Origin: Sugiyamaella lignohabitans
Lineage: Eukaryota > Ascomycota > Dipodascomycetes > Dipodascales > Trichomonascaceae
Length of the DNA: 64,000 bases
Reading direction: 5' to 3'
Assembly: GCF_001640025.1 (NCBI RefSeq)
Contig: NC_031672.1
Coordinates: 1,364,001-1,428,000, forward strand
The first letter of the stretch is position 1; every line of letters begins with the position of its first letter. Positions 41,925-58,060 of this stretch are shown in pieces. Below the pieces are notes generated by a model. The model was given only the letters and a program-made list of their open reading frames with translations, made no database searches and was not told the origin of the DNA. Both the position numbers and the translations under genes were made by a program.

Positions 41925-41952
41925 TCTGCCACCAACCTCACACATCCCCTGC

Positions 41953-42015
41953 TGCCTCCGGCGGCTGGGGCTCCGCCCCAGACCCTGGTTGCTCCTCTCG
42001 CTTCGCTCGAGTCGG
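41953..42015 (+). repeat. GC-rich hairpin repeat, copy 26 (class A)
   Basis: CCCTGGTTG subtype; faces copy 27 across 71 bp and shares its subtype. Confidence 0.9.
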
Positions 42016-42086
42016 GCGTGGAGCCCGTGGGACAAGGGTCGTTAGTGGCTGCGGAATTGGCTACGAATTGCCCGGCTCGCTAAGCC

Positions 42087-42147
42087 CGACTCGAGCGAAG
42101 CGAGAGGAGCAACCAGGGTCTGGGGCGGAGCCCCAGCCGCCGGAGGC
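42087..42147 (-). repeat. GC-rich hairpin repeat, copy 27 (class A)
   Basis: Same subtype as copy 26, which suggests the pair arose together or was homogenised. Confidence 0.9.
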
Positions 42148-42161
42148 AGACCCAAAACCCG

Positions 42162-43311: not shown

Positions 43312-44236
43312 TGTAGAGAGATATCAGGACAATCAAGTATCACCTAGAAAAAAAAATTTGGAAATTCGATAAGAATCAAGAATCAAGAATCGAGAATCAG
43401 AAGAATCCAGAATCAGGAATCGGAAGAATCAACAGGAACCAGTAACGGTACTAATGTCGATTGTCGAATAATAACACTAACAGCAGCAACAGTAGCAGTG
43501 TCAGCAACAGAAATACCAGAACAAAGTACTAGTATGACTTAAAAGAGCCTGTAAATATAATATCAGCTAACAACAGTATCAATATCAAGTACCAGTAGCA
43601 CCAGAATCACTATCAATTAGCAGTAAGATCACTATCAGTAACAACCAACAGCAACAGAGATAAGACTTCAGAGAAAGTAGTGAAAGACAGTCGTCAAACA
43701 AATAACGTAGCAGACAATTTTCTCGATTAAATAACCAGAAAAAGTCAATCGAGATATGAAAGAATTGCCACCCACTAAAAAAAAAGTCAGATGTCAATTG
43801 AGCCGAACTAGTATTTTTAATCAGATGAAAAAAAATCGGCCACCGAAAAATAAGCGTCGATAGCACAGCACACACGGAGAGAATACAAAGTACAAAGTAC
43901 AAAGATCAAATCAGTTCAATTGAGTTGAGTTCAATTGATAAATAATCGTAGTAGAAATAGTAAGAGCAAGTCGTGTAAAAGTTGTTGAAAACCTTGACCC
44001 ACAAATAAATTCGCAATGTGCAACCGGAGTATGCTAATAATACGTATGAAATAGCAAGATACAGCAGAAAAGAGGCCACTGGCAGCAAAGCACTCTCCTG
44101 CAAAAACAAACAAAAGCCTCCTCCTCCTCCATCTCCCCCTGCCGCCGCCGCCGCTGCTGCCCCTGCTTGCTGCCGCGGCTGGATACCTCCCAACCGCCTC
44201 CGGCCGCAGCGGTGGCTCTGGGGGGCGGGGGGTGTT

Positions 44237-44298
44237 GCCTCCGGCGGCTGGGGCTCCGCCCCAGACCCTGGTTGCTCCTCTCGCTTCGCTCGAGTCGG
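44237..44298 (+). repeat. GC-rich hairpin repeat, copy 29 (class A)
   Basis: CCCTGGTTG subtype. Confidence 0.9.
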
Positions 44299-44535
44299 GC
44301 GTCAGGTTGCAGGCAGGGCTGGATCCAGGGGGGAGGGGGGATCCAGCGGCACCGGCCGGCAGGGAAACAGGTGAGTCCGACAGACGCGAAATGGGCTGGA
44401 ACGGTCCGGACAAACCCAATTGGCCCTCCTGAATTTCCACAACGGGCGCCACGGACCATACCCATCCACCGAACGCCAGTGCAAACCCTCGAAACAGACC
44501 GAACTCCAGTGCAAACCCCTCGAAAGAGACACCCA

Positions 44536-44675
44536 CTTCCCCCTCCCAATCCTCGCGAACCAGGGTCCAAACCACACCAAACCACCCCATTCCACCCATT
44601 CCCCCCAAAACCTCGAGCGAAGCTCGAGCCACGGGGTCTGGGGCGGAGCCCCAGCCGCCGGAGGCACACCCCCTA
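44536..44675 (+). repeat. Inverted duplication, left arm
   Basis: Reverse complement of 44893-45043 at high identity. Includes repeat copy 30 plus ~75 bp of unique flank with CCCTCCCAATCCTCGCGAAC. Confidence 0.8.
44611..44665 (-). repeat. GC-rich hairpin repeat, copy 30 (class D)
   Basis: Perfect CTCGAGC/GCTCGAG stem. Lies inside the left arm of the inverted duplication. Confidence 0.9.
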
Positions 44676-44892
44676 CATCAAAACCCCCCGACCGCCGGAG
44701 GTGGACCCTGACTGGTTGGCCGGGGTAGCCGCGCGCGGCCCGGGGCTTAGTTGGAGATGCATTGTCTACGTACGAGACGAGACAGATAAGCCTGGAAAGT
44801 GGACAGACACAAACAGAGCCATTGGTGACACGGATTCAGGCAATTGCAATTGGTCAATCGAGCGCTGGGTGAGTTCGACGAGGGGAAAATCG

Positions 44893-45043
44893 GTGGGAGG
44901 TGTGCCTCCGGCGGCTGGGGCTTCGCCCCAGACCCCGTGGCTCGAGCTTCGCTCGAGTTTTTTGGGGGGGATTGGGCAGTTTGGGGGTTTGGGGGGTTTG
45001 GGGGGTTTGGACTCTGGTTCGCGAGGATTGGGAGGGGAAAGAA
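44893..45043 (-). repeat. Inverted duplication, right arm, with G-run tract
   Basis: Mirror of 44536-44675. Between the repeat and the unique flank lies a tract of G-runs separated by TTT (44964-45010), absent as such from the left arm, which carries a diverged C-rich equivalent. Confidence 0.8.
44903..44957 (+). repeat. GC-rich hairpin repeat, copy 31 (class D)
   Basis: Perfect class D stem, hairpin 1 loop TTC. Duplicate of copy 30. Confidence 0.9.
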
Positions 45044-45266
45044 AGGGTTGAAAGAGGACTGGGGTTGGAGAGGGGGACTGGAAAATGGCGGTTTTTTTTG
45101 CTGCTGCTGTTGTTTTTGGATGGTGTCAGGTGAGGGGATGGAGGTGGAGGAGGTGCGAGTGCGATTACAGGGGGTCAGTCTGCCATTGTTCACTCCAGGA
45201 ACCCCAATTTCGCACGGTTTCGTCTCACAAAACCGAATCCCCTAATTAGCCCGACCGCCCGACGCC

Positions 45267-45327
45267 CGACTCGAGCGCAGCGAGAGGAGCCGGGGGGTCT
45301 GGGGCGCAACCCCAGCCGCCGGAGGCA
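45267..45327 (-). repeat. GC-rich hairpin repeat, copy 32 (class A)
   Basis: Hairpin 1 reads GGGGCGCAACCCC; about 50 bp upstream of the SLA2 start. Confidence 0.85.
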
Positions 45328-45378
45328 CACCCCGACCCGTGAAAACAAGAGAGAGACTAACAGGTACAGAAGTAGGAA

Positions 45379-48300
45379 ATGTCTGCAAATACGGGAGCGC
45401 TGTCGCGGGCAGAGGCCGATTTGGGGGCTCATGTGAAGAAGGCCACGAACCCCGATGAGACGGCTCCGAAGAGAAAGCATGTGAGAGCGTGTATTGTGTA
45501 TTCGTGGGACCACCGGTCGGGACGTGCGTTTTGGAACGCTTTGAAGGTCCAGCCGTTGCAGAATGACGAGGTCCAGGTGTTTAAAGCGCTTATTACCGTT
45601 CATAAGGTGCTTCAGGAGGGTCATCCATCGGTTTTGAAAGAGGCTCAAGCTCATGTCAACTGGATCAATTCACTGACTCATGGAATTAATAGCGGTCCAG
45701 GCGGCCATCATGGCTATTCTCGTCTGATTCAGGAATATGCTAGGTTGCTGCTCAAGAAATTATCGTTTCATCGGTCTCATCCGGTGTTTAACGGCACATT
45801 TGAGTATGAAGAGTATATTTCGCTGCGAAGTGTTAATGACCCTAATGAGGGGTATGAGATTATTATTGATTTGATGAATTTGCAAGATGCAATAGACGAT
45901 TTCCAGCGACTGGTTTTCTCGTCGTTGCACAGCGGTAGGTCGAATGAATGCAAAATCTCGTCTTTAACCCCCATGGTGGCTGAATCTTACGGTATTTATA
46001 GGTTTTCTACAAGTATGTTGCGAGCTATGCATTCTACAGCAGGTGATTTAGAAGCTCTAGAACCACTGCGTTCGAGATACCACTCGCAACACCGTCGCTT
46101 GCTTGATTTTTATTATGACTGCTCTAGTTTAAAGTACTTGACTAGTCTAATCACCATTCCGAACCTTCGACCCGAACCTCCTAATTTGTATGGTGAAGAG
46201 GACGAGGCTCCTGCTCTGCCCAAACGACCTGGTCAAGGTCTGGAAAGAGAAGCTTCGATTGGGTCGTCAAATGTAACACCAACTCCTACTCCTAGTGTGC
46301 TGCCAGAACAAGAGTCTGCTGGCGACTGGTGGGGAAGTAACAATGCCAATGCCAATGCTCAGTTATTGCAACAACAGCAGCTGGAGGAACAACAAAGACA
46401 GTTGCAAGCACAACGAGATGCTGAGCTGCTTCGTCAACAACAGCTGGCCGAACAACAACAACGTCAGTTTGAAGAGCAGCAACGGTTACAATTAGAACAG
46501 CAGCAACAGGCTCAACAAGCGCTGATTCGCGATCAAATGCAACGACAAGCTGAAGGACGAGCTGCCGAGCTGGAAAGAGATATTCTTCAGTTAAGAGGAC
46601 AATATGAACAGAACCAGCTTTTGTTAGAGCAGTATGACCGCCGTGTCAAGGCTCTTGAAACCGAACTGGGCCAACTGAACACTAACACAAGTTTGCAATT
46701 AGAATCGAAAAACGACTTGATCCAGTCATTGCAGGAACAGGTGTCTATGTGGAAAACGAAATACGAATCGCTGGCTAAGTTATACTCGCAACTGCGTCAA
46801 GAGCATTTGGATTTATTGAGTAAATTCAAGCAAGTACAAGCCAAGGCGGCTTCTGCTCAAGAAGCAATTGACAAACGAGAACGACTGGAACGGGATCTTA
46901 AAGCCAAGAATTTGGAGTTGGCCGATTTGATCAGAGAACGCGACCGCGCTCGATATGATTTGGACAAGTCTCGCGGCAGCTCGAAAGATCAATTGGAAAA
47001 GCTCGAGCGTGATTTGAGATTGATGCAAGATAAGCTCAACGACGCTGAGCGTGCTAAAGGAGCCGATTTGTCGCTGCTTATTTCTCGACACAACCGGGAA
47101 TTGGCCGAACTGGAAGACGCTCTTAAAGCCAAGCAACGGGCTTTGGATGATATTAGCAACGGCCGCTCTGTTAATGAGAGTGTGTTGCGAGAAAAGGAGG
47201 AAGAAGCGGATATTTTGCGTGAGACTATTGCTAGTATGGAGAATGCCATGAAAGAAATGAGTTTGGACCACCAAGCCAGTTCTGGCGGAATAAGAAAGTT
47301 GGCTGCTATTATTGATGCTATTTTGAACGCGGCAGCAGAACGAATCCAGGAATCGCTTTTCGAATTTGAGTCTCCCATGCAAGCAGGTAACCAAAACTCG
47401 ACTCCAAATTATCTATTATCGGTGATTGAGAAAACATCGACTAATGCTACCGATTTCTCGACTGCATTCAACAATCACTTGGCCGAAGGTGAGGAAGGAT
47501 CCGATCCATCGGAGATTATTAGGACTGCCACTGCATTTGCCAATGCTATTTCCGACGTGCTTATCAATGCCAAGGGTATTACCAGACTGGCCCGTAACGA
47601 CGATTTAGTTGATGAGATCTCTGCAGCATCTCGTGAATCAGCTGTTGCTGCAACTGCATTTTTCACCAGTCTCGTGTCGGATCTGATTACCGGACTCACC
47701 CCTGAAGATACTACAGATTTGGTTATCTCATGCAACGTTGAAGTACAACAACATTTACAAACCCTGTCTCATTTGGCCGAACAAATGGCACCTAAACTAT
47801 CTGTGACCACTAATGGATCAACTGATTTGGGTGATATTGTCGATAATGAGATGGCCCGTGTTGCTGAAGCTATTGCTACTGCTACTGCCAAACTCACCCA
47901 GCTTCTTGCCAGACCAAAAGATCCCAAATTCTCTACATTCGATGTGCAAGTTAACGAAGCAATTCTTGCTGCTGCTATTGCTGTAACTTCTGCCGTGGCT
48001 GCACTTATTAAAGCGTCTACAGAATGTCAACAAGAGATTGTTGCTCGAGGCAGAGGTTCATCTTCACGTACTGCTTATTATAAAAAGCATAACCGTTGGA
48101 CAGAAGGTCTTATTTCCGCTGCCAAGGTTGTTGCTGGTGCCACAAACATTCTTATCTCATCGGCCGATGGAGTATTGGCTGGTAAAAGCAGCCCCGAGCA
48201 ATTGATTGCTGCCTCGAATGAAGTAGCGGCATCCACTGCTCAATTGGTAGCTGCTTCACGAGTCAATGCATCGTTTATGTCCAAGACACAAGATAAGCTT

Positions 48301-48549
48301 GAATTGGCAAGTAAATCTGTAAGCAGTGCATGCCGTGCTTTGGTTAATAAAGTACAGGATATTCTTGCACAAAGATCCACTACCCAAGCAGAAGAAATCG
48401 ATTACTCCAAACTCACGCCTCATGAGTTTAGAACTGCAGCTATGGAACAACAAGTCGAGGTTCTCAAACTCGAACAACAGCTTACCGCTGCAAGAAACAG
48501 GCTGTTTGAAATTAGGAAGATTGATTACCAAAACGAGGAGGAAGATTAG
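45379..48549 (+). CDS. SLA2: Endocytic adaptor Sla2 (HIP1R family)
   Basis: 1056 aa, single exon. An ANTH domain (residues ~12-285) begins KKATNPDETAPKRKHVRACIVYSWDH and includes the lipid-facing helix with FKALITVHKVLQEGHPS. A Gln-rich coiled coil covers ~325-620. The C-terminal THATCH (I/LWEQ) actin-binding domain covers ~830-1045, with KHNRWTEGLISAAKVVAGATN and DKLELASKSVSSACRALV. Sla2 links clathrin coats at PI(4,5)P2 membrane to actin. In yeasts this gene is the classic flank of the mating-type locus, and here the MATa1 stop lies 76 bp downstream in convergent orientation. Confidence 0.97.
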   Translation: MSANTGALSRAEADLGAHVKKATNPDETAPKRKHVRACIVYSWDHRSGRAFWNALKVQPLQNDEVQVFKALITVHKVLQEGHPSVLKEAQAHVNWINSLTHGINSGPGGHHGYSRLIQEYARLLLKKLSFHRSHPVFNGTFEYEEYISLRSVNDPNEGYEIIIDLMNLQDAIDDFQRLVFSSLHSGRSNECKISSLTPMVAESYGIYRFSTSMLRAMHSTAGDLEALEPLRSRYHSQHRRLLDFYYDCSSLKYLTSLITIPNLRPEPPNLYGEEDEAPALPKRPGQGLEREASIGSSNVTPTPTPSVLPEQESAGDWWGSNNANANAQLLQQQQLEEQQRQLQAQRDAELLRQQQLAEQQQRQFEEQQRLQLEQQQQAQQALIRDQMQRQAEGRAAELERDILQLRGQYEQNQLLLEQYDRRVKALETELGQLNTNTSLQLESKNDLIQSLQEQVSMWKTKYESLAKLYSQLRQEHLDLLSKFKQVQAKAASAQEAIDKRERLERDLKAKNLELADLIRERDRARYDLDKSRGSSKDQLEKLERDLRLMQDKLNDAERAKGADLSLLISRHNRELAELEDALKAKQRALDDISNGRSVNESVLREKEEEADILRETIASMENAMKEMSLDHQASSGGIRKLAAIIDAILNAAAERIQESLFEFESPMQAGNQNSTPNYLLSVIEKTSTNATDFSTAFNNHLAEGEEGSDPSEIIRTATAFANAISDVLINAKGITRLARNDDLVDEISAASRESAVAATAFFTSLVSDLITGLTPEDTTDLVISCNVEVQQHLQTLSHLAEQMAPKLSVTTNGSTDLGDIVDNEMARVAEAIATATAKLTQLLARPKDPKFSTFDVQVNEAILAAAIAVTSAVAALIKASTECQQEIVARGRGSSSRTAYYKKHNRWTEGLISAAKVVAGATNILISSADGVLAGKSSPEQLIAASNEVAASTAQLVAASRVNASFMSKTQDKLELASKSVSSACRALVNKVQDILAQRSTTQAEEIDYSKLTPHEFRTAAMEQQVEVLKLEQQLTAARNRLFEIRKIDYQNEEED

Positions 48550-48625
48550 TAGTCTGTATTTTCAATCATATTATATAAATAAGAAGAGCTATTCAAAATT
48601 TTTTTTCGCTCGAGCCCTCTCATTG

Positions 48626-49216
48626 TTAAACTGAGTTGTTAGATTGCTGACTCTGACTCATTATTTTGTTTCTTACCCAAATTGTTACTTGTTGGAGTGA
48701 CAGGCCACACTTCGTGGCGAGAGCGGTTCGCTGCCTTAAGGATGGTTTAGGGCAAATCTTGAAGAAGTTTCTTAATACAGCGGTAGTTGAACGTGAAAAT
48801 CGAGATCCTCTTTTTGTCACTTTCCCATGAAGGGTGTGATGGCGGATAACTCTCTCGTTACGAAGAATTTCCGTTTTTTCATCATGAAGTACATGTTGAA
48901 GAACTCGCTCCATTTGGGTAGATTCTGGTTCTGATTGGAGCTGAGGGGCGACCTGGAACAAAGTTAGTAAATAGTTAGGATATCATCTAATCGATCATAC
49001 TCTGGCAGCTATATGAAAATGATATCTATAGTTTTGGTCTATGTTTTCCCATAACTGGCGGAGACTGGGGCTGCGCGGTGTATGAGTAAAGCGAGGACTC
49101 GTATACTTCATGTTTTGAATTAGGGACGGTTCCAAATCAATGGCAAATTCTAAAACCTCGGTGTATAAACATTTCAAATCTTTCATCTCCTGAAATTCAT
49201 CTTGAGATTTATCCAT
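48626..49216 (-). CDS. MATa1: Mating-type homeodomain protein MATa1
   Basis: Two exons, complement(join(48626..48952,49001..49216)), 180 aa. The intron is 48 nt: donor GTATGA, perfect TACTAAC branch site, acceptor TTCCAG. The homeodomain covers residues ~118-172. Helix 3 reads SLQQVTIWVRNKIMSQ with W164 and N167; the block ALATKCGLSLQQVTIW lines up with KKCGITPLQVRVW of S. cerevisiae a1. WV replaces the usual WF, and isoleucine replaces the usual Arg at the end of WFxNxR, which is lax even for a1 proteins. The start is the ATG at 49216; an in-frame TTG further up is not used. Known role: with alpha2 in a/alpha diploids, repression of haploid genes. Confidence 0.88.
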
Positions 49217-49461
49217 TTTCGTTTGTGTCGTCAAAATGCTGGCAGCAGTAGCTTATCTATATATTCCTGCAATGCGCATCTCCACACTATCTATTTTTGG
49301 GCAAAATAATGCACCTCAAAAACTTTGTATGTCTATTCTGCATATGGATGCCGATCCCAGCTTGACGGACTTGGCCTCAGGGGAAATGGAGATGCCTCAA
49401 AAAAAAATAGAATACTTAAGAAAGTCATACTGTTCTACGCTTTTCTATTCATGATATTATT
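49217..49461. promoter_or_regulatory. Divergent MATa1/MATa2 promoter
   Basis: 245 bp between two divergent ATGs. It has a TATA-like TATCTATATATTCC near 49253-49266 and a second AT-rich patch near the a2 start. No clear palindromic operator seen by eye. Confidence 0.6.
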
Positions 49462-50310
49462 ATGAGTTTGTCAACATTAAACATGAGGGTTTTGCCCCCA
49501 CTGCCCCCGGTATATCAGTCTGAAGTTTCTCTGCCCAAGAGGTCCTCAGGAATGCTCCCAGAGCCTAATTGTGCTACAAATGAGTTTCTTATTGCTGCAT
49601 ACAAGAAAAAAGCTCAGGATTGGCTCTTTATAAAACCTGAAGACTGTAAAGCGATGCTTGGAAAGAAGAAGCAGGAAAAAGACCCGAGACCTGTGAATAA
49701 GTTCCTTTTGGCTAGAATGCACCTGCTTTGTCTGCTAAAGCAAGGCAGACAGTATTTGGCGAGTATCGAATGCTCTGTTGTAATTAAGAATGTGAGTATA
49801 GGCTATTGTCCTATTATTCCTACATAATCTAACTTGATAAAGGTTTGGAAGGAGTATCCCGGGCTAAATCCATTGTTTGATAATTTTTTCACCTATCTGG
49901 GTTTGGTGGCTAAAACTTATCACTACCATAAATACCCGGGTTATCGATTCCGACCAAGAAGAAGACATACGGTTATTTGGAAAACACGGATTCTTGGGCC
50001 TTCAGTACAACAGGATTCGAATAACGAGCAAGGGTTGCCAAAGAGGAACTCGAAAATATCGCTTGAGCTACCCATGGAAAGTGACTCTTTTACGGACTCC
50101 CCATTCAGCTCTCCCGAATTTACTACCGACTCAACTTTCGAAGGTCATCTACCACCAGAGGAAGATCCAAATATAAAATCATTACGCTGGCTTGTGTCTT
50201 GTGATCCTGAGGACCCAATATATCTCCAGATGCAGAGGAACTTGGAGATGCAAAGGAATTTGGAGATTGAGATGAAGTACCTATCGAGTTGGCCGCTAAT
50301 GATCTCTTGA
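49462..50310 (+). CDS. MATa2: Mating-type HMG-box protein MATa2
   Basis: Two exons, join(49462..49791,49843..50310), 265 aa. The intron is 51 nt with donor GTGAGT, branch TCTAAC and acceptor AAAG; it falls inside the HMG box. The MATA_HMG box covers residues ~74-150: DPRPVNKFLLARMHLL...VVIKN|VWKEYPGLNPLFDNFFTYLGLVAKTYHYHKYPGYRFRPRRR. The NKF, VWKEYP, A..K..H and YPGYRFRPRR positions are those of mating-type HMG proteins. This is the Candida-type a2 (HMG), not the truncated alpha2-like a2 of S. cerevisiae. Known role: activator of a-specific genes. It converges on APN2 with 80 bp between stops. Confidence 0.9.
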
Positions 50311-50390
50311 AAGACCATCTCTAATTTATTATCGCTAGATCAATTGCTTACTATTTATTTATTGCTTATTATTTATTACCAAATAGAATT

Positions 50391-52609
50391 CTATTTAAGC
50401 CACTTGAAAAAGTCACAGCGATAGCTATCTAGAGTTCCGTTCGTGGGATCGGCACCCGTTGGCCTACAAATGTTAGCCATGCTGAACCTGCATTTCTTTT
50501 CTGCTCTCAGCAATTTAACAGGATGGAACATGCAGATCAAACGTCGTCTGCAGATCACAGATTTATAACTTACCTTGAACAGATCCAAAATGCACGACCC
50601 TTATTCGGGCCATTTTTCTTGGAAATCAGTAATTTACATGGTTCTTGGTGTACTTTGCAAAGAGGAGGTTCAGGTGCGGCAAAGAGTTTTTTCCATTCTC
50701 CAGATTTGGAATTTTTTGGGGTTGTTATTGAATAGGGTTCAGTATCAGCAATAGATTCAGTCGATTCAGAAACTGGTGTTGATATTTCTTCTTTGCTTGA
50801 TGTTGTTATCGGAGATAATGTACTATGGTTAGAATTAAGGGCGGAATTATTGGTGGCCGGTTCAGGTTTGTTCCAAAAGGATAAAATAGACGATTGTGCA
50901 CGTTTCTTGGTGCCGGTTTTCTGAAACTTTGATGCAGTGGCTTTTATCGGTTTGGATGGCGGCCTCTTTAATGCTGCATTAGGAGGAGTCACGAACTGCA
51001 AATGCAAGCGGTCAGTTTCATCTGCATCCAAAGTGGGGCGACGGGCATTGACAGGGGGTTGTGAGGTTTTTTTATGATTATCGGTGCTGGGACCACCATA
51101 AGATGAAAACAGGGCTCTAATATTGGCTTGCTTTGTGGTAAATTGTGGCATGAAGGATGCACACATGCGAGGTAAGTAGGGTTGTTGTGCAGGTGGTATA
51201 GGTTGGCCAGGATGTTGCAATTGTGTTTTGGATGAGTTTGTCGCCGAATTTGGAATTGCTGAGTCTGTCGTTACTGAATCTGGTATTGCCGTCGCTGAAT
51301 CTAGCGTTGCCTGTGATGATGCTTCTATAGATTCTTCCAGAGATGTTCCCTGTGAGGAGTCCTGTGAAGAAACTTCCCAAAGCAAATCGGCATACACAGG
51401 ACAGTGGTCGGATCCATACAATTGAGGAAGAATGTCTGCTTCTATGTACTCAATTCCCGGCGAAGTAAGCACATAATCTATTCTAGAACCAAAATTTCCC
51501 GGTCTGGCATCTATCAACTGATTCCAACATGTGTACATGCCCCATCTGTGGGGATGTAGATCTCGTGTAGTATCGCGAAGTCCAACATCTCCGTCCCTAT
51601 TTAGCCATTTATGAAATAATATCCGTACGTCAGAAGCAGATCTCCACAGTTGGGCTTCTTTTTCATTTGCTTTAAGAAACTCCTCGGGAGTTTGAATTCC
51701 CGTTTGAGGATTGGCCGACGTCAGTCGACCCTCTTTTGCCAATTCCACTCGACCTTTGGCTGAATCGACGATATCTCGTGTCACATTCAGATCTCCCAGT
51801 ACCACGACCCGTCTCCCTAGACTCAGCAGGTTTCGGATCCGGATATCAAGGGCCTCAAAAAACGCAATTCGAAACTCTGTTTTATCACCCATAGAATCAG
51901 CCGGACAGTATAGTCCTATCACCACACAATACCCCAGATCTAGCACTACACATCTGCCTTCCGAGTCAATTTCCAGTCCCACTTTCTCGTCAATATTACC
52001 CGGATACCCTCCTATACACTCATCTGGCGGCAGGTCTCTGTATGCCAATTTCTCGAAACCTCCACTGCCGTTATCACTGCCAGATGCTGCATTCAGACTC
52101 CGACCCAGACTCTGATCCAGACTCTGATCCAGACTCTGATCCTGACTCCGATTCTGGCTCTGATTCCAACTCGGGCTTTGGGTTGCACTCCAACTCTGAT
52201 TCCGACTCTGGTTCTGACTCTGGAACCTTGACTTATACTCGTGATCCTGGCTGGCCAGCCACCCAGTGATACCCTGTTCAGCTTTGTATACAACGATGTC
52301 GTTTTTCACGTAAATAACCACGCCACTGTACCCCTTTTTCGCGACTGGAAACGTGAAAAAAGCGTTATATCCACCTACCAGCGCCATCGACTCAGTGACA
52401 TCGCGAGCCTGGATCTTCGTCTCCTGAAAACAAACAACATCGCCGTCGAGTATCTCGAACATGTTCTCAAAACTGCGTTTCTCGTTCCACGGCCGGAAAT
52501 TCAGAACATTCTTGATCCCGCAAACATTAAACGACACAAACCGCTTGGCATCCGCCCTCCTTTTCCTCGGCACCCCACCATCCGCTGCTACACTCGCACT
52601 CTCACTCAT
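50391..52609 (-). CDS. APN2: AP endonuclease 2 (Apn2)
   Basis: Two exons, complement(join(50391..50463,50574..52609)), 702 aa. Exonuclease-endonuclease-phosphatase fold: VSFNVCGIKN, VVCFQETKI (metal-binding Glu), GDLNVTRD, SRIDYVLTS and GSDHCPVYADL (catalytic Asp-His). After a disordered linker with a possible PCNA-contact region, a GRF zinc finger ends the protein: CKVHQEPCKLLISKKNGPNKGRAFWICSR|PTGADP...YRCDFFKWLK. The 110-nt intron splits this finger, so without it the finger would be broken. An unusual Gln/Ser/Asn-rich insert (YKSRFQSQNQSRNQSW onward) sits within the nuclease domain. Known role: abasic-site and 3'-end repair. It is the right-hand flank of the MAT locus. Confidence 0.95.
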
Positions 52610-52681
52610 CCTCGAGCATCTCCTTCCTCTTTCTCACCTCACAAATCACTTGCATCTCCGCGACCCGGATATCAACACCGC

Positions 52682-52693
52682 GGTTAGGGTTAG
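52682..52693 (+). promoter_or_regulatory. TTAGGG-type (Tbf1-like) motif upstream of APN2
   Basis: GGTTAGGGTTAG, two TTAGG units, 73 bp upstream of the APN2 ATG. Tbf1 binds such motifs in many yeasts. It could also be an interstitial telomere-like scar. Confidence 0.35.
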
Positions 52694-52708
52694 TAATGCA
52701 GGGTCCTC

Positions 52709-52743
52709 ATCCGGCTGGGGCTCCTCTCGCTCCGCTCGAGTCG
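52709..52743 (+). repeat. GC-rich hairpin repeat, copy 33 (internally deleted)
   Basis: The 5' block is fused directly to the class A tail; hairpin 1 and the spacer are gone. Confidence 0.8.
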
Positions 52744-52766
52744 TTACTGTCGGCGGTCTCAGCCAA

Positions 52767-52800
52767 CTCCTGAGAAGCAGGAGCCCCAGTCGCCGGAGGC
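52767..52800 (-). repeat. GC-rich hairpin repeat, copy 34 (internally deleted, class B)
   Basis: Faces copy 33 and has the same deletion: CTCCTG/CAGGAG joined directly to CCCCAG and the 5' block. Shared loss in both pair members suggests a single event or homogenisation. Confidence 0.8.
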
Positions 52801-52893
52801 AGGGGCCAGGAAAGAAGAAGTTTCAGACAAAAGTTAAATGTATTTATTAAAAAATTTAAATGGTTAAGAAAGTAATACAATGGGGAGTGGTGG

Positions 52894-55800
52894 CTAGTCG
52901 TCGGAGAATTCCAGCTCCTCGTCGGACGAGCCACTGCTGAACCAGGATGTGGGTGCACGCTTGACTCCTTGGCCACGACAGAAGGGACAAGTGTTTCGTG
53001 AACCTAGGAGCCAGCTGTCAATGCAGGTCTTGTGGAAGACGTGTTTGCATCTGCGGAGCCTACGACACTCTTGGCCAGCGGTGTAGCCATCCAAACAAAT
53101 GTGGCAAACTTCCTTAGTGTCAGGAGTCTCTCCGAGAACAAAAGTGTTGTATGCAAGACCAAGATCGCGCTGGCTAACAATGCAATTGTCGACGTGATCG
53201 AGGTAGCCGTCCAAATCCACTAGCTCTGCGAAGGAAGGAACGTCAACGACTCGCTCGCGTCGACTGATAATGGGGTGGTCCAAATCAAACATGCCAGCAA
53301 TGATGTGAACAGCCCATCTTCTGCCTCCCTCTTCAGAATCGGATGTGGATGAGGATGGTTGGCAACTCGGGCCGGCCTCTTCGTCGTCAGTTTCCTGGTT
53401 GTAATCCGGGTCGTCGTCTTCCACGCGCTGATAATCACGAACACTGGCAATGACGTAAATTCTGGAATCTTTGCGAGATTCGGCAGCTCGCACCTCAGGG
53501 TCGTCACAAAGCTCTTTTGCGGTCGTTTCACGAAGCTCATCCAACAAAGTTTTGAAAATTGCATTCTCAGAAGTGAACTCCAAGAGGAAGTCATCGGCGT
53601 CAGCATCAGAACCGGCATCAGAACCAGAACCAGGAGCGGAAGCAGATCCAATAGGAGAAGTAGCAGGAGAGCCAGAAAGAGCAGTAGAAGCAGCAGCAGC
53701 AGCAGCATCAGCATCAGATGATAGGTGGCTTTCACGGACCCAGGAAGAATAAGCAGAAACGCGGACAGGCATATCCATAGTGCTATCCGGGCTTCTCCGA
53801 CCATCAGCCAATGCCTCGAGATGCTCCAAACCAACAGTACCACCCATACCATCTAGACCAGTCTCAGGAAATCCTGAATCGCCTTCTTCGTCATTAATGG
53901 GCTTGATACCAACAGCCAAAATAGGAACCCTGCCATCAGCGGCGGCTCTGCGGAACCTGAACATTCTGAAGAAGTTGTGAGGTCTATTGAACAAACGACA
54001 ATCGACGTGAGGGCCATATTTTCGAAAATACTCAGCTTCATCCTCAAGATAACCTCCATCATGATCGGGAGTTCCAAATTCGTGATCCATGGCATTCGCA
54101 ACTTCTCCCATAAGATATCCACTGGTGATATTTTCCACAAAAACGTCCACAGTCTCAGGGTCGAATAAACGACCATCAAATGGACCCCTAGACCTCTCAT
54201 AGACAATACCCTCACCAGCCCAATCTTGACCAACTAGAGCAATAGCAGTGAAATGAGTGAGACGTCCCACCAAAACTCCTATCTTATTGGCGTGTCGAGT
54301 GAGGAATCGATATCTGTACTTCTCTGCCATAATGGAAACCATTAGATCCTCGTCTTCAGACCCTTCAAAAATTCTTTGGTAACACAGCTCGCGTTGCTCT
54401 CTTGTCATACGTCTGATAGGGTGATTACTATCACTGGTTGGTGGGTTATAGTAATCAAAACCAGCGGCATTGAACTCTTCAATGGCGTCGGAATCCAATT
54501 CAGACGACGAGTCTTCGTAATATATCATCTGACGAAGACCTTCTCCTGGTTCTTCCCCGTATTCTTCTTCACCCTCCTCCTCCTCCTCCTCCTCCTCCTC
54601 GTCATCCTCATTGATGCTGCTTTCGGTGTCATCGGATCCATACTCGTCACTCTCAAGAAGTTGACAACCCATCTGATGAATTTCCAGTCCATCCTCGGTT
54701 TTGTAAACAATAGTTACGAATTTCTCTTTAGCAGTTTGAGTCGCAGGCCTGTAAGTACTGGTAGGGGCAGAAATACGGGTAGGAGCAGAAAGAATGCTGT
54801 TGAATTCACTGCCATAGTTCTTGGGAAGCCTTCCAATAAATTCATTCAATGTAGGAGGAAATCTGCTGAGTCTCTTGCGACGGGAATTATCGTCAGGCTC
54901 CGAGTCCTCGTCGCTACTGTCTGCTCTTTGTCGACGTTGAGAAGATCCAGATGAAGAATCAGAAGCTGATTCAGAAGACAGAGATTCAGAACTAGAGGCA
55001 GAAGAAGGCTCTTCAGGTTCAACAGACGATTCAGACTCGGTACGGGCTCCATTTCTGTTGATGATGATAGATGCAAAAACAGACTTCCCTTTAGATAGTA
55101 CAGGGCGGGGAGGCTGGCTGTCAGATGGGGGAGGAGATGTCTGAACAGATGAAGGGGATTGTTGTTGAGTGTGGACAGGGGCTAGCTGAATAGTGACTGG
55201 AGCAGGGCCATGAGGAGCTGACTGAATAGTGACGGGAGCTGGGCCATAAGAAGCTGGCTGAATGGTGACGAGAGCAGGGCCATGAGGAACTGACTGAATA
55301 GTGACAGGAGCTGGGCCATGGGAAGCGTAATATGGCATGATATAAGTCATGGCAGGGGCAGTTGTATGACCAGAGGCAAAAGGAGATACAGGTTGTTGGT
55401 GTTGAGTGGCATAGACCATGGAATGTTGAGCTGAAATAGGAGTGGCAGGGGCAGGCTGCACAATACGGGGATCAGAATGAACTTGAGGCACTTGTGGAAC
55501 CTGTGGAACCTGATAAAAGGTTTGAGGATTGGCATAAACAGCAGGCTCTAAAACTTGAGGCTGGTAACCTTGTCCATTTTGAATGTGAATTTGAGAGGCA
55601 GGCTGAACGCTCTGGGCTGTTTGAGGAGAAACAGCAGGCTGTTGATAATTGTCCATCTCACTTACAGACCCGCTTGTAGAGTGAAAAGGAATGGAATAAT
55701 AGTAACTGCCTTTGAAAATAATTTGATTGGTATTTGCAGGAGGAGCAACTTGAGAAGGAGGAGGTGCTGATGGATGAATAGGAACTTGAATCCCAGGACT

Positions 55801-55995
55801 AGCAACCACATATACAGACTGAGTAGGAATATTGGCATCACCAGAAACAGCATCTGGGATATGAGTCTCGGTCTGGTTATTGTGGGCATTACATCTACAA
55901 ATATGTCTTGGAAGACCATTCTCTGTAAAATAGATACTGTCTTCCTCGTCATCAGTGTAGTCGTAAGGAGGGGAGTCCCCTGATTCGTTTGACAT
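52894..55995 (-). CDS. Large RING-H2 protein, putative E3 ubiquitin ligase
   Basis: 1033 aa from the ATG at 55995. An in-frame ATG at 56064 would add 23 hydrophobic residues encoded by a TATA/poly-A leader and is less likely. The N-terminal half is disordered and Pro/Gln-rich, with four tandem copies of a ~16-residue unit (GPAPVTIQSxPH-like, nucleotides ~55170-55325) and a poly-Glu run. A folded middle region (TREQRELCYQRIFEG to ~IKPINDEEG) is not recognised. The C-terminal RING-H2 is complete: CHIC-x15-CKHVFHKTC-x11-CPFC, followed by a Ser/acidic tail. Ligase activity is inferred from the RING; substrate unknown. Confidence 0.8.
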   Translation of the reverse strand: MSNESGDSPPYDYTDDEEDSIYFTENGLPRHICRCNAHNNQTETHIPDAVSGDANIPTQSVYVVASPGIQVPIHPSAPPPSQVAPPANTNQIIFKGSYYYSIPFHSTSGSVSEMDNYQQPAVSPQTAQSVQPASQIHIQNGQGYQPQVLEPAVYANPQTFYQVPQVPQVPQVHSDPRIVQPAPATPISAQHSMVYATQHQQPVSPFASGHTTAPAMTYIMPYYASHGPAPVTIQSVPHGPALVTIQPASYGPAPVTIQSAPHGPAPVTIQLAPVHTQQQSPSSVQTSPPPSDSQPPRPVLSKGKSVFASIIINRNGARTESESSVEPEEPSSASSSESLSSESASDSSSGSSQRRQRADSSDEDSEPDDNSRRKRLSRFPPTLNEFIGRLPKNYGSEFNSILSAPTRISAPTSTYRPATQTAKEKFVTIVYKTEDGLEIHQMGCQLLESDEYGSDDTESSINEDDEEEEEEEEEGEEEYGEEPGEGLRQMIYYEDSSSELDSDAIEEFNAAGFDYYNPPTSDSNHPIRRMTREQRELCYQRIFEGSEDEDLMVSIMAEKYRYRFLTRHANKIGVLVGRLTHFTAIALVGQDWAGEGIVYERSRGPFDGRLFDPETVDVFVENITSGYLMGEVANAMDHEFGTPDHDGGYLEDEAEYFRKYGPHVDCRLFNRPHNFFRMFRFRRAAADGRVPILAVGIKPINDEEGDSGFPETGLDGMGGTVGLEHLEALADGRRSPDSTMDMPVRVSAYSSWVRESHLSSDADAAAAAASTALSGSPATSPIGSASAPGSGSDAGSDADADDFLLEFTSENAIFKTLLDELRETTAKELCDDPEVRAAESRKDSRIYVIASVRDYQRVEDDDPDYNQETDDEEAGPSCQPSSSTSDSEEGGRRWAVHIIAGMFDLDHPIISRRERVVDVPSFAELVDLDGYLDHVDNCIVSQRDLGLAYNTFVLGETPDTKEVCHICLDGYTAGQECRRLRRCKHVFHKTCIDSWLLGSRNTCPFCRGQGVKRAPTSWFSSGSSDEELEFSDD

Positions 55996-57040
55996 TTTTA
56001 ACGACAGAACAAAAAAAAAAAAGCAGCAACAAAATGAGTGTAGATAGATATATATATAACACATTTTAAAAAAGAAAACACAAATAGGGGTAAGACATAA
56101 CTAAGAGGGAGACCAATATTTGACGTGACCCGTGAAAAAGCAAATGCAAGCGGGGCATATCCAACGGTATGCAGCAAAGCTAAACAGGTATAGTGGAGCA
56201 GTAGCTAATATGTAATAAGCTGTAAAGACTGCAGTATAATATCAGGAATGGTAATAGATTGGCACCGTTGACAAGCATTGACCGACAGTGGTGCAGTACA
56301 ACCATAGATAAGCAGCAGTTGAAAAATATTGTGAGTCTGTTGGGTTTTTTAAAAAGAATATCTATTTCCGCACCATATTTTCTATTGATATTGACGGTTA
56401 ATAACTTTTGTAATCCATATGCGTATACGTATGGCATACGGGTATCAGGATCTGAAAAACAAATTCCCAGTCTTTTGAAAATAATTGTTGTGGAGAGCAC
56501 AATCGGCTGCAGAAGTGGGTTTTCTCACAACCGGAAGTAAGGTGATATTTTTGACCCGGTCCGGTGCTGGTCAAATAATACCCCTCAATGATTTTTGGCC
56601 TTTTTTCGCCTTTTTTGCCCTTTTTTTATTTTATTTTTTAATTTTTCTTTTAATTGTTTTGTCATTTCTTTAGCCAAAAATATCCATGAATTTGAAAATA
56701 CCATTAATGCCAATGACATTTTACACAAACGGTAATTTCTCCAGAATCAAGACTCCGCAGGATCTGAACCCCTGTTTGAATTTGAACCCCTATTTTCCAC
56801 AATTCCTAGGTCTGCGTTGCATTTGCCGTTAAATTAGCCAAGACTATATAGCTAATGCATGGTCAGTGAGTAAAATTTACGACGTTAACGTTAGCTGCAT
56901 ATGCATCCAACGGTCGTCCAGTCGATTGGTAAACATTTTACGACAACCAGGATAGCAACAGGAAATGACTGGCCATTACCGACGCAAAAGGACTCCAAAA
57001 AGACGCAACGCAACTCCAAAAGATGCCTCAAACGCAAAAT

Positions 57041-57080
57041 AACACCACAGGACACCACAGGACACCACAGGACACCACAG
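57041..57080 (+). repeat. 10-bp tandem repeat, four copies
   Basis: Unit GACACCACAG; first unit differs by one base. Degenerate units continue to about 57103. Confidence 0.85.
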
Positions 57081-58000
57081 GACGCACCAGAATACCACAG
57101 GATGCAACATTGTAGCAGAATATGCCAACTTACAGGTGAGACTGCACTAATGCACAAAAATTGAGACAGTTTCTCTACTTGAAACACCAGTAGTGGCTTT
57201 TTTACGAACACACTCGATCCGACCGTCTTAATATGAAAATACATGCTATGGATCACGGCCTTCCGGGATGTAGCATACCATATCTGCGGTCCACGGCACC
57301 ATCTCCAGCCATTACCCATCGTCTTCTTACGGCCAGATAAAAGATGCCTCAAATTCCAAAAGTTTTTGAAATTTCATACCTGTTTGACATCCCCCGTTGA
57401 AAAAAAAAGATGTCGGTAAACTCGCAAAACCGCCCTCCCCCTGACAGATCCAGGCCGATCCGCTGTCAAACGTCAATCCGCATTAGCCAGATCCAATTGT
57501 CACGCCAGAAGCAACACAAACACCAAAAACTACACAAAAAACCACCAAATAATGACCCTACCGTTCAAAAAACAACCCAGAAAGACCACTTTAACACCTG
57601 ACGCCTCTTCGTCGTCGTCGTCGACGAACATCCAAACACAGATTGTCCAGAATCTACCCGTCTAAATTTAACGGGCGATCGCGCACTAAAACAGTTAGCT
57701 CCACAGCTGTCGCTGACATGCATACACCCCTCCCCCTCGTCACCCCTCGTGCTGCGACCATCCAAACTGAAACATGCACTGCGAGCGAGCATCTGCGGAG
57801 TGGGTAATAAATCTACAGCCGCTAGCAAGTACATTATCGCCGGCGCTATCAGACCTGCAAAGCGGATAAAACCACAAGCCACGATAAGAACCAGCTCCCG
57901 AAATAATAATCGCTTTCTCCGATAAGCACGCACCCCGAAATCGCCGGATTCGACCCCGTGCTGCCGGCGAGCTGCCCGGACCCTACTGTTCCGGGTCCCT

Positions 58001-58060
58001 GCCTCCAGCGGCTGGGGCTCTGCCCCAGACCCCGTGGCTCCTCTCTCTGCGCTCGAGTCG
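58001..58060 (+). repeat. GC-rich hairpin repeat, copy 35 (class A, diverged)
   Basis: Starts GCCTCCAGCGG; the second hairpin reads CTCTCTGCGCTCGAG. Faces copy 36. Confidence 0.85.

Follow-up and report, generated by a model that had tools for sequence, protein, structure and literature searches.

In the family Trichomonascaceae, mating-type (MAT) loci have been described for relatives of Sugiyamaella lignohabitans; the papers cited here are drawn on in part, and what is credited to them holds for those parts. In Blastobotrys adeninivorans LS3, a single MAT locus is syntenic with the SLA2-APN2 locus of Blastobotrys proliferans (PMC6692504), carries alpha1 without alpha2, and belongs to a region conserved with Yarrowia lipolytica (PMC4022394). 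Trichomonascus vanleenenianus, of the same family, has alpha1 and no alpha2 (PMC13130702), and the genus Blastobotrys as a whole is described as lacking alpha2 (PMC6692504). In the cited passages, strains of opposite type are not known for B. adeninivorans (PMC4022394) or T. vanleenenianus (PMC13130702). In B. proliferans, a subtelomeric MATa2 locus places a2 between SLA2 and APN2 pseudogenes, a second locus carries alpha1, and no a1 is mentioned in the passages used (PMC6692504). Here, a 64,000-nucleotide stretch of S. lignohabitans DNA (the window; contig NC_031672.1, positions 1,364,001 to 1,428,000) was analyzed, in which a homeodomain gene and an HMG-type gene lie between SLA2 and APN2. 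The locus is very probably the only MAT idiomorph, of type a, in a dipodascalean yeast that is haploid, heterothallic, and non-switching.

Whereas the B. adeninivorans locus carries alpha1, the S. lignohabitans locus is a MATa locus holding a1 as well as a2. Unlike in B. proliferans, a2 is flanked by open SLA2 and APN2 genes and a1 is present. The order along the DNA is SLA2 (plus strand), homeodomain gene (minus), HMG-type gene (plus), and APN2 (minus), and both this order and the assignment to MATa, which the first-pass annotation had proposed from the letters alone, were borne out by gene models and domain matches: a non-TALE homeodomain gene of the a1 type and an HMG-type gene of the a2 type diverge from each other next to SLA2, at the ancestral site of the locus. 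The features are as follows.

45379..48549, plus strand: SLA2, a single exon of 1056 amino acids, left flank of MAT
48589..49216, minus strand: MATa1, exons 49216-49001, 48952-48677, and 48630-48589, 177 amino acids (spliced model)
48953..49000, minus strand: a1 intron 1, 48 nt, GTATGA...TACTAAC...CAG
48631..48676, minus strand: a1 intron 2, 46 nt, GTAAGA...CTAAC...CAG, directly after the recognition-helix Trp codon
49217..49461, no strand: a1-a2 intergenic stretch, 245 bp between divergent start codons, presumed to be a shared promoter
49462..50310, plus strand: MATa2, exons 49462-49791 and 49843-50310, 265 amino acids, divergent HMG box at residues 75-151
49792..49842, plus strand: a2 intron, 51 nt, GTGAGT...CTAAC...AAG, inside the HMG box
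50391..52609, minus strand: APN2, exons 52609-50574 and 50463-50391, 702 amino acids
50464..50573, minus strand: APN2 intron, 110 nt, GTAAGT...CTAAC...TAG, near the 3' end of the gene

The three exons of a1 replace two plain open reading frames (48626-48913 and 48995-49216). When intron 2 was read through, the recognition helix ended in the aberrant tail IWVRNKIMSQ; its removal gave IWFNNERARAKKNFE, with a stop at 48589, and restored the canonical helix WFNNERAR. A decaying homeodomain, as suggested by the tail WVRNKIMSQ of a two-exon model, was therefore rejected, since the 46-nt second intron explains the tail. With splicing, the PF00046 match rose from 37.5 bits (profile 5-51) to 54.7 bits (5-57 of 57; E 8.8e-15), and 53 residues (122-174) covered 53 profile positions (5-57) with no insertion. 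This match is three residues shorter than that of TALE chains, e.g., PBX1 (121-176 to 5-63). The alpha2 protein is a TALE homeodomain protein. Because its 53 residues fill exactly 53 positions, the homeodomain here is non-TALE, which fits a1 and not alpha2, and the gene was rejected as an alpha2 candidate for lack of the TALE insertion. MATa1 of Saccharomyces cerevisiae (1AKH/1YRN) is also non-TALE and matched the spliced a1 by phmmer at E 8e-4, while several animal and plant homeodomain chains scored higher against it. The S. cerevisiae MATa1 gene has two introns.

For the HMG-type gene, a hidden Markov model (HMM) was built from three HMG boxes, one from this genome and two from PDB. Against it the spliced a2 protein scored 30.7 bits, a value reached by none of 5000 shuffles, and the splice model adopted was the best of 19 candidates. 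Even unspliced, the frame of the second exon (49828-50307) ranked first among 417 window frames of at least 60 amino acids, with 20.1 bits against 5.0 for the next. Among the weak PDB matches of a2, 11 of 12 were SRY/SOX chains. The first-pass annotation had spoken of an HMG-box gene; the HMG assignment holds by the three-box HMM, but the box departs from the textbook form and no Pfam model recognizes it. The gene was rejected as alpha1, as the MATalpha box PF04769 does not match its protein. In Y. lipolytica, MATA comprises the gene pair MATA1/MATA2; the S. lignohabitans a2 is too divergent for the Pfam HMG models.

Heterothallism had been argued earlier from the absence of alpha genes in the 64-kb window. 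The conclusion is likely to be right, but the argument from one window is weak, and the check was extended to alpha1, alpha2, and silent cassettes in the whole assembly to which the window belongs (15,932,016 bases, 4 contigs). It gave no alpha1, no clear alpha2, and no second MAT copy. The MAT DNA is single-copy in the 15.93-Mb assembly. No second SLA2 was found there (its remaining matches had E 0.4 and 0.57), nor a second APN2 with exon 1 as the query (weak matches only, E 0.22-0.57, including those of SLA2). PF04769 gave 0 alpha1 candidates across the assembly and was also silent in 14 control genomes, among which there was no fungal positive control. The S. cerevisiae alpha1 protein likewise gave 0 matches in the assembly, an empty result that shows little; PF04769 does recognize that protein (51.5 bits). 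For the alpha1 of T. vanleenenianus, a pfam04769 domain has been reported (PMC13130702).

Homeodomain searches of the assembly returned seven matches, a1 itself among them, with no clear alpha2, a gene tested for only through homeodomain families. HMG searches also returned seven matches, with no clear alpha1. A Pfam re-scan covered two of the seven HMG boxes together with the single strong KN homeodomain. The latter (L021; C2:391158-391277, plus strand; E 1.2e-21) is the only strong KN, TALE-type homeodomain in the genome and lies in a 483-amino-acid frame. It was tentatively rejected as alpha2; its helix NWFINARRR resembles that of the Cup9/Tos8 types. The two pheromone-receptor genes, STE2 and STE3, gave one match each in the assembly, with open frames.

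Switching at the locus was considered through inverted repeats. Between 44 and 60 kb in the window there were nine inverted pairs of at least 40 nt, of which five span MAT, and no other MAT-spanning inverted repeat of this length was found in that interval. The longest spanning pair (45265-45327/58000-58062) is 63 nt long and 89% complementary. All five carry a GC-rich motif, matched 6,400 times across the genome, and flip/flop switching through the longest pair was rejected on this ground. The spanning pairs could in principle recombine, but there are no known alpha genes for them to bring in; no second copy of MAT was found in the assembly, and no alpha gene lies nearby. In S. cerevisiae, by contrast, there are silent cassettes, and MATa2 was lost in the species, S. 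cerevisiae included, that arose after the whole-genome duplication (PMC5499181).

Heterothallism is thus likely, because no alpha1 was found assembly-wide, because the MAT DNA, SLA2, and APN2 each occur once, and because the spanning repeats all belong to a common motif. Krassowski et al. (2019) apply a rule by which a genome with only MATa or only MATalpha genes is scored as heterothallic (PMC6692504). The S. lignohabitans genome falls on that side of the rule, with no alpha1 found and the MAT DNA present once, on searches that had no fungal control and reached alpha2 only via homeodomain families. In that survey, Sugiyamaella stands within a group of 37 species, three of which are discussed individually in the passages used (PMC6692504). 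The name "lignohabitans" is absent from the main text of that paper, whose supplementary data may list the present locus. In the literature searched for mating, heterothallism, and the genome, seen in part, no earlier description of the S. lignohabitans MAT locus was found. Sugiyamaella smithiae, the type species, falls in the same clade as S. lignohabitans, and a title cited in the same paper describes Stephanoascus smithiae, taken here as the same species, as heterothallic (PMC7815693).

Several observations weigh against the interpretation as a heterothallic MATa locus. The alpha1 search lacks a positive control from a fungal genome, and the evidence comes from one strain. No relative of a1 was found among 34 candidate proteins at E<=1, and none of a2 among 279 candidates at E<=0.001; NCBIfam gave no lead either. 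A degenerate YGEP(G/N)W-like clade pattern for the alpha-pheromone gave 0 matches in the assembly, with a pattern that was perhaps too strict. In addition, one HMG protein elsewhere in the genome (L012; C4:1658108-1658326, minus strand; 591-amino-acid frame) scored 17.7 bits with PF04769, below the cut-off of 28.1; PF00505 fits it far better, at 48.5 bits. We take this protein to be possibly a Ste11-like regulator.

Among the alternatives, that of a relic locus, in which a1 and a2 persist in a species that is asexual, is unlikely. It draws on the taxonomy of the genus: of the 29 Sugiyamaella species recognized at the time, 25 were asexual morphs, and S. lignohabitans is not one of the four for which an ascosporic state was known (PMC7815693). 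However, a1 is open over three exons and a2 over two, with introns of normal form, and the frames of STE2 and STE3 are open.

We regard it as quite improbable that the species is a primary homothallic of the non-contiguous kind, with an alpha-type locus in a subtelomere that the assembly lacks, i.e., B. proliferans with the types reversed. There is a precedent in the family, as B. proliferans has MATalpha1 at SLA2-APN2 and a MATa2 locus close to a presumed telomere (PMC6692504). In S. lignohabitans, however, neither SLA2 or APN2 pseudogenes nor alpha1 were found in the 4 contigs, and these 15.93 Mb compare with a published genome of 16.0 Mb in 4 chromosomes (PMC5499181).

Still less probable is a sequenced strain that was an a/alpha diploid, from which the assembler retained the a allele only. 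The evidence is one assembly, and diploid heterothallics exist in the survey of Krassowski et al. (PMC6692504); against this, alpha1 was not found in any contig, and a differing alpha idiomorph would often leave an extra contig, whereas there are only 4. That the plus-strand gene is an unrelated open reading frame residing in MAT and not an HMG protein is highly improbable; in its favor, a2 has no Pfam match, even spliced and at E<=10, and the 279 candidates held no homologue.

The flanks of this MATa locus were also refined. SLA2 carries ANTH (E 3e-79) and I/LWEQ (E 7e-57) domains and is 68% identical to ARAD1D19316p of B. adeninivorans, with closer relatives at 70-73%. For APN2, the presence and strand given by the first-pass annotation stand; the extent it implied does not, as the unspliced frame stops at 50570 and the spliced gene ends at 50391. 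An Exo_endo_phos domain lies on exon 1. The GRF zinc finger scored 32.2 bits (profile 1-29 of 45) without exon 2, which lengthens the match to 1-41 of 45 and lifts it to 43.2 bits. All four introns of the locus (two in a1, one each in a2 and APN2) have a CTAAC branch site near the acceptor. Introns are reported to interrupt only 5% of S. lignohabitans protein-coding genes (PMC5499181), so their presence in three adjoining genes would fit old, conserved introns of the locus.

The GC-rich motif of the inverted pairs is 33 nt long (GGGTCTGGGGCGGAGCCCCAGCCGCCGGAGGCA) and has 38 copies in the window (309-63980) with up to 3 mismatches. Genome-wide, 3225 + 3175 matches were counted in 15.9 Mb, and 0 for a reversed control. 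Examples lie at 41953-42148, 44236-45327, and 58000-58032. In 11 cases in the window, a forward copy comes after a reverse copy at a distance of up to 400 nt, in 8 of them at a spacing of 104-163 nt, and one fold-back (41952-42149) has 66-nt arms that are 100% complementary. The motif has the look of a fold-back element amplified on a massive scale. SLA2, MAT, and APN2 all lie in the longest motif-free gap of the window (12.7 kb, 45295-58000). In the same gap, the next long open reading frame after APN2 (52894-56064, minus strand) encodes 1056 amino acids, is acidic, and ends in what by eye is a C-terminal RING-type finger; a 36-nt tandem repeat lies inside it at 55181-55324.

By analogy with known systems, the locus would set a cell type. 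In a haploid a cell, the HMG activator a2 would turn on a-specific genes, STE2 for example. Once the cell has mated with one of alpha type, whose idiomorph would be carried by other isolates, a1 would pair with alpha2, if present, to repress haploid functions. As such, this is an ordinary MATa locus of a known kind, to which we add corrected gene models and an assembly-wide check for alpha genes. Primers placed on the locus can help to find mates, and searches with a2 can aim at divergent a2 genes that escape the Pfam models.

The one point beyond routine interest concerns a1 and alpha2. The best-known partner of a1 is alpha2. The a1 gene is intact here, with three exons, two introns, and a canonical homeodomain, though Blastobotrys and T. 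vanleenenianus are without alpha2. With alpha2 missing in these relatives, an intact a1 implies either an alpha2 in an alpha idiomorph yet to be seen or a role of a1 that does not depend on alpha2, the latter being doubtful in our judgment. That no alpha2 is known from related genera makes a1 a testable case for how haploid functions are repressed in diploids.
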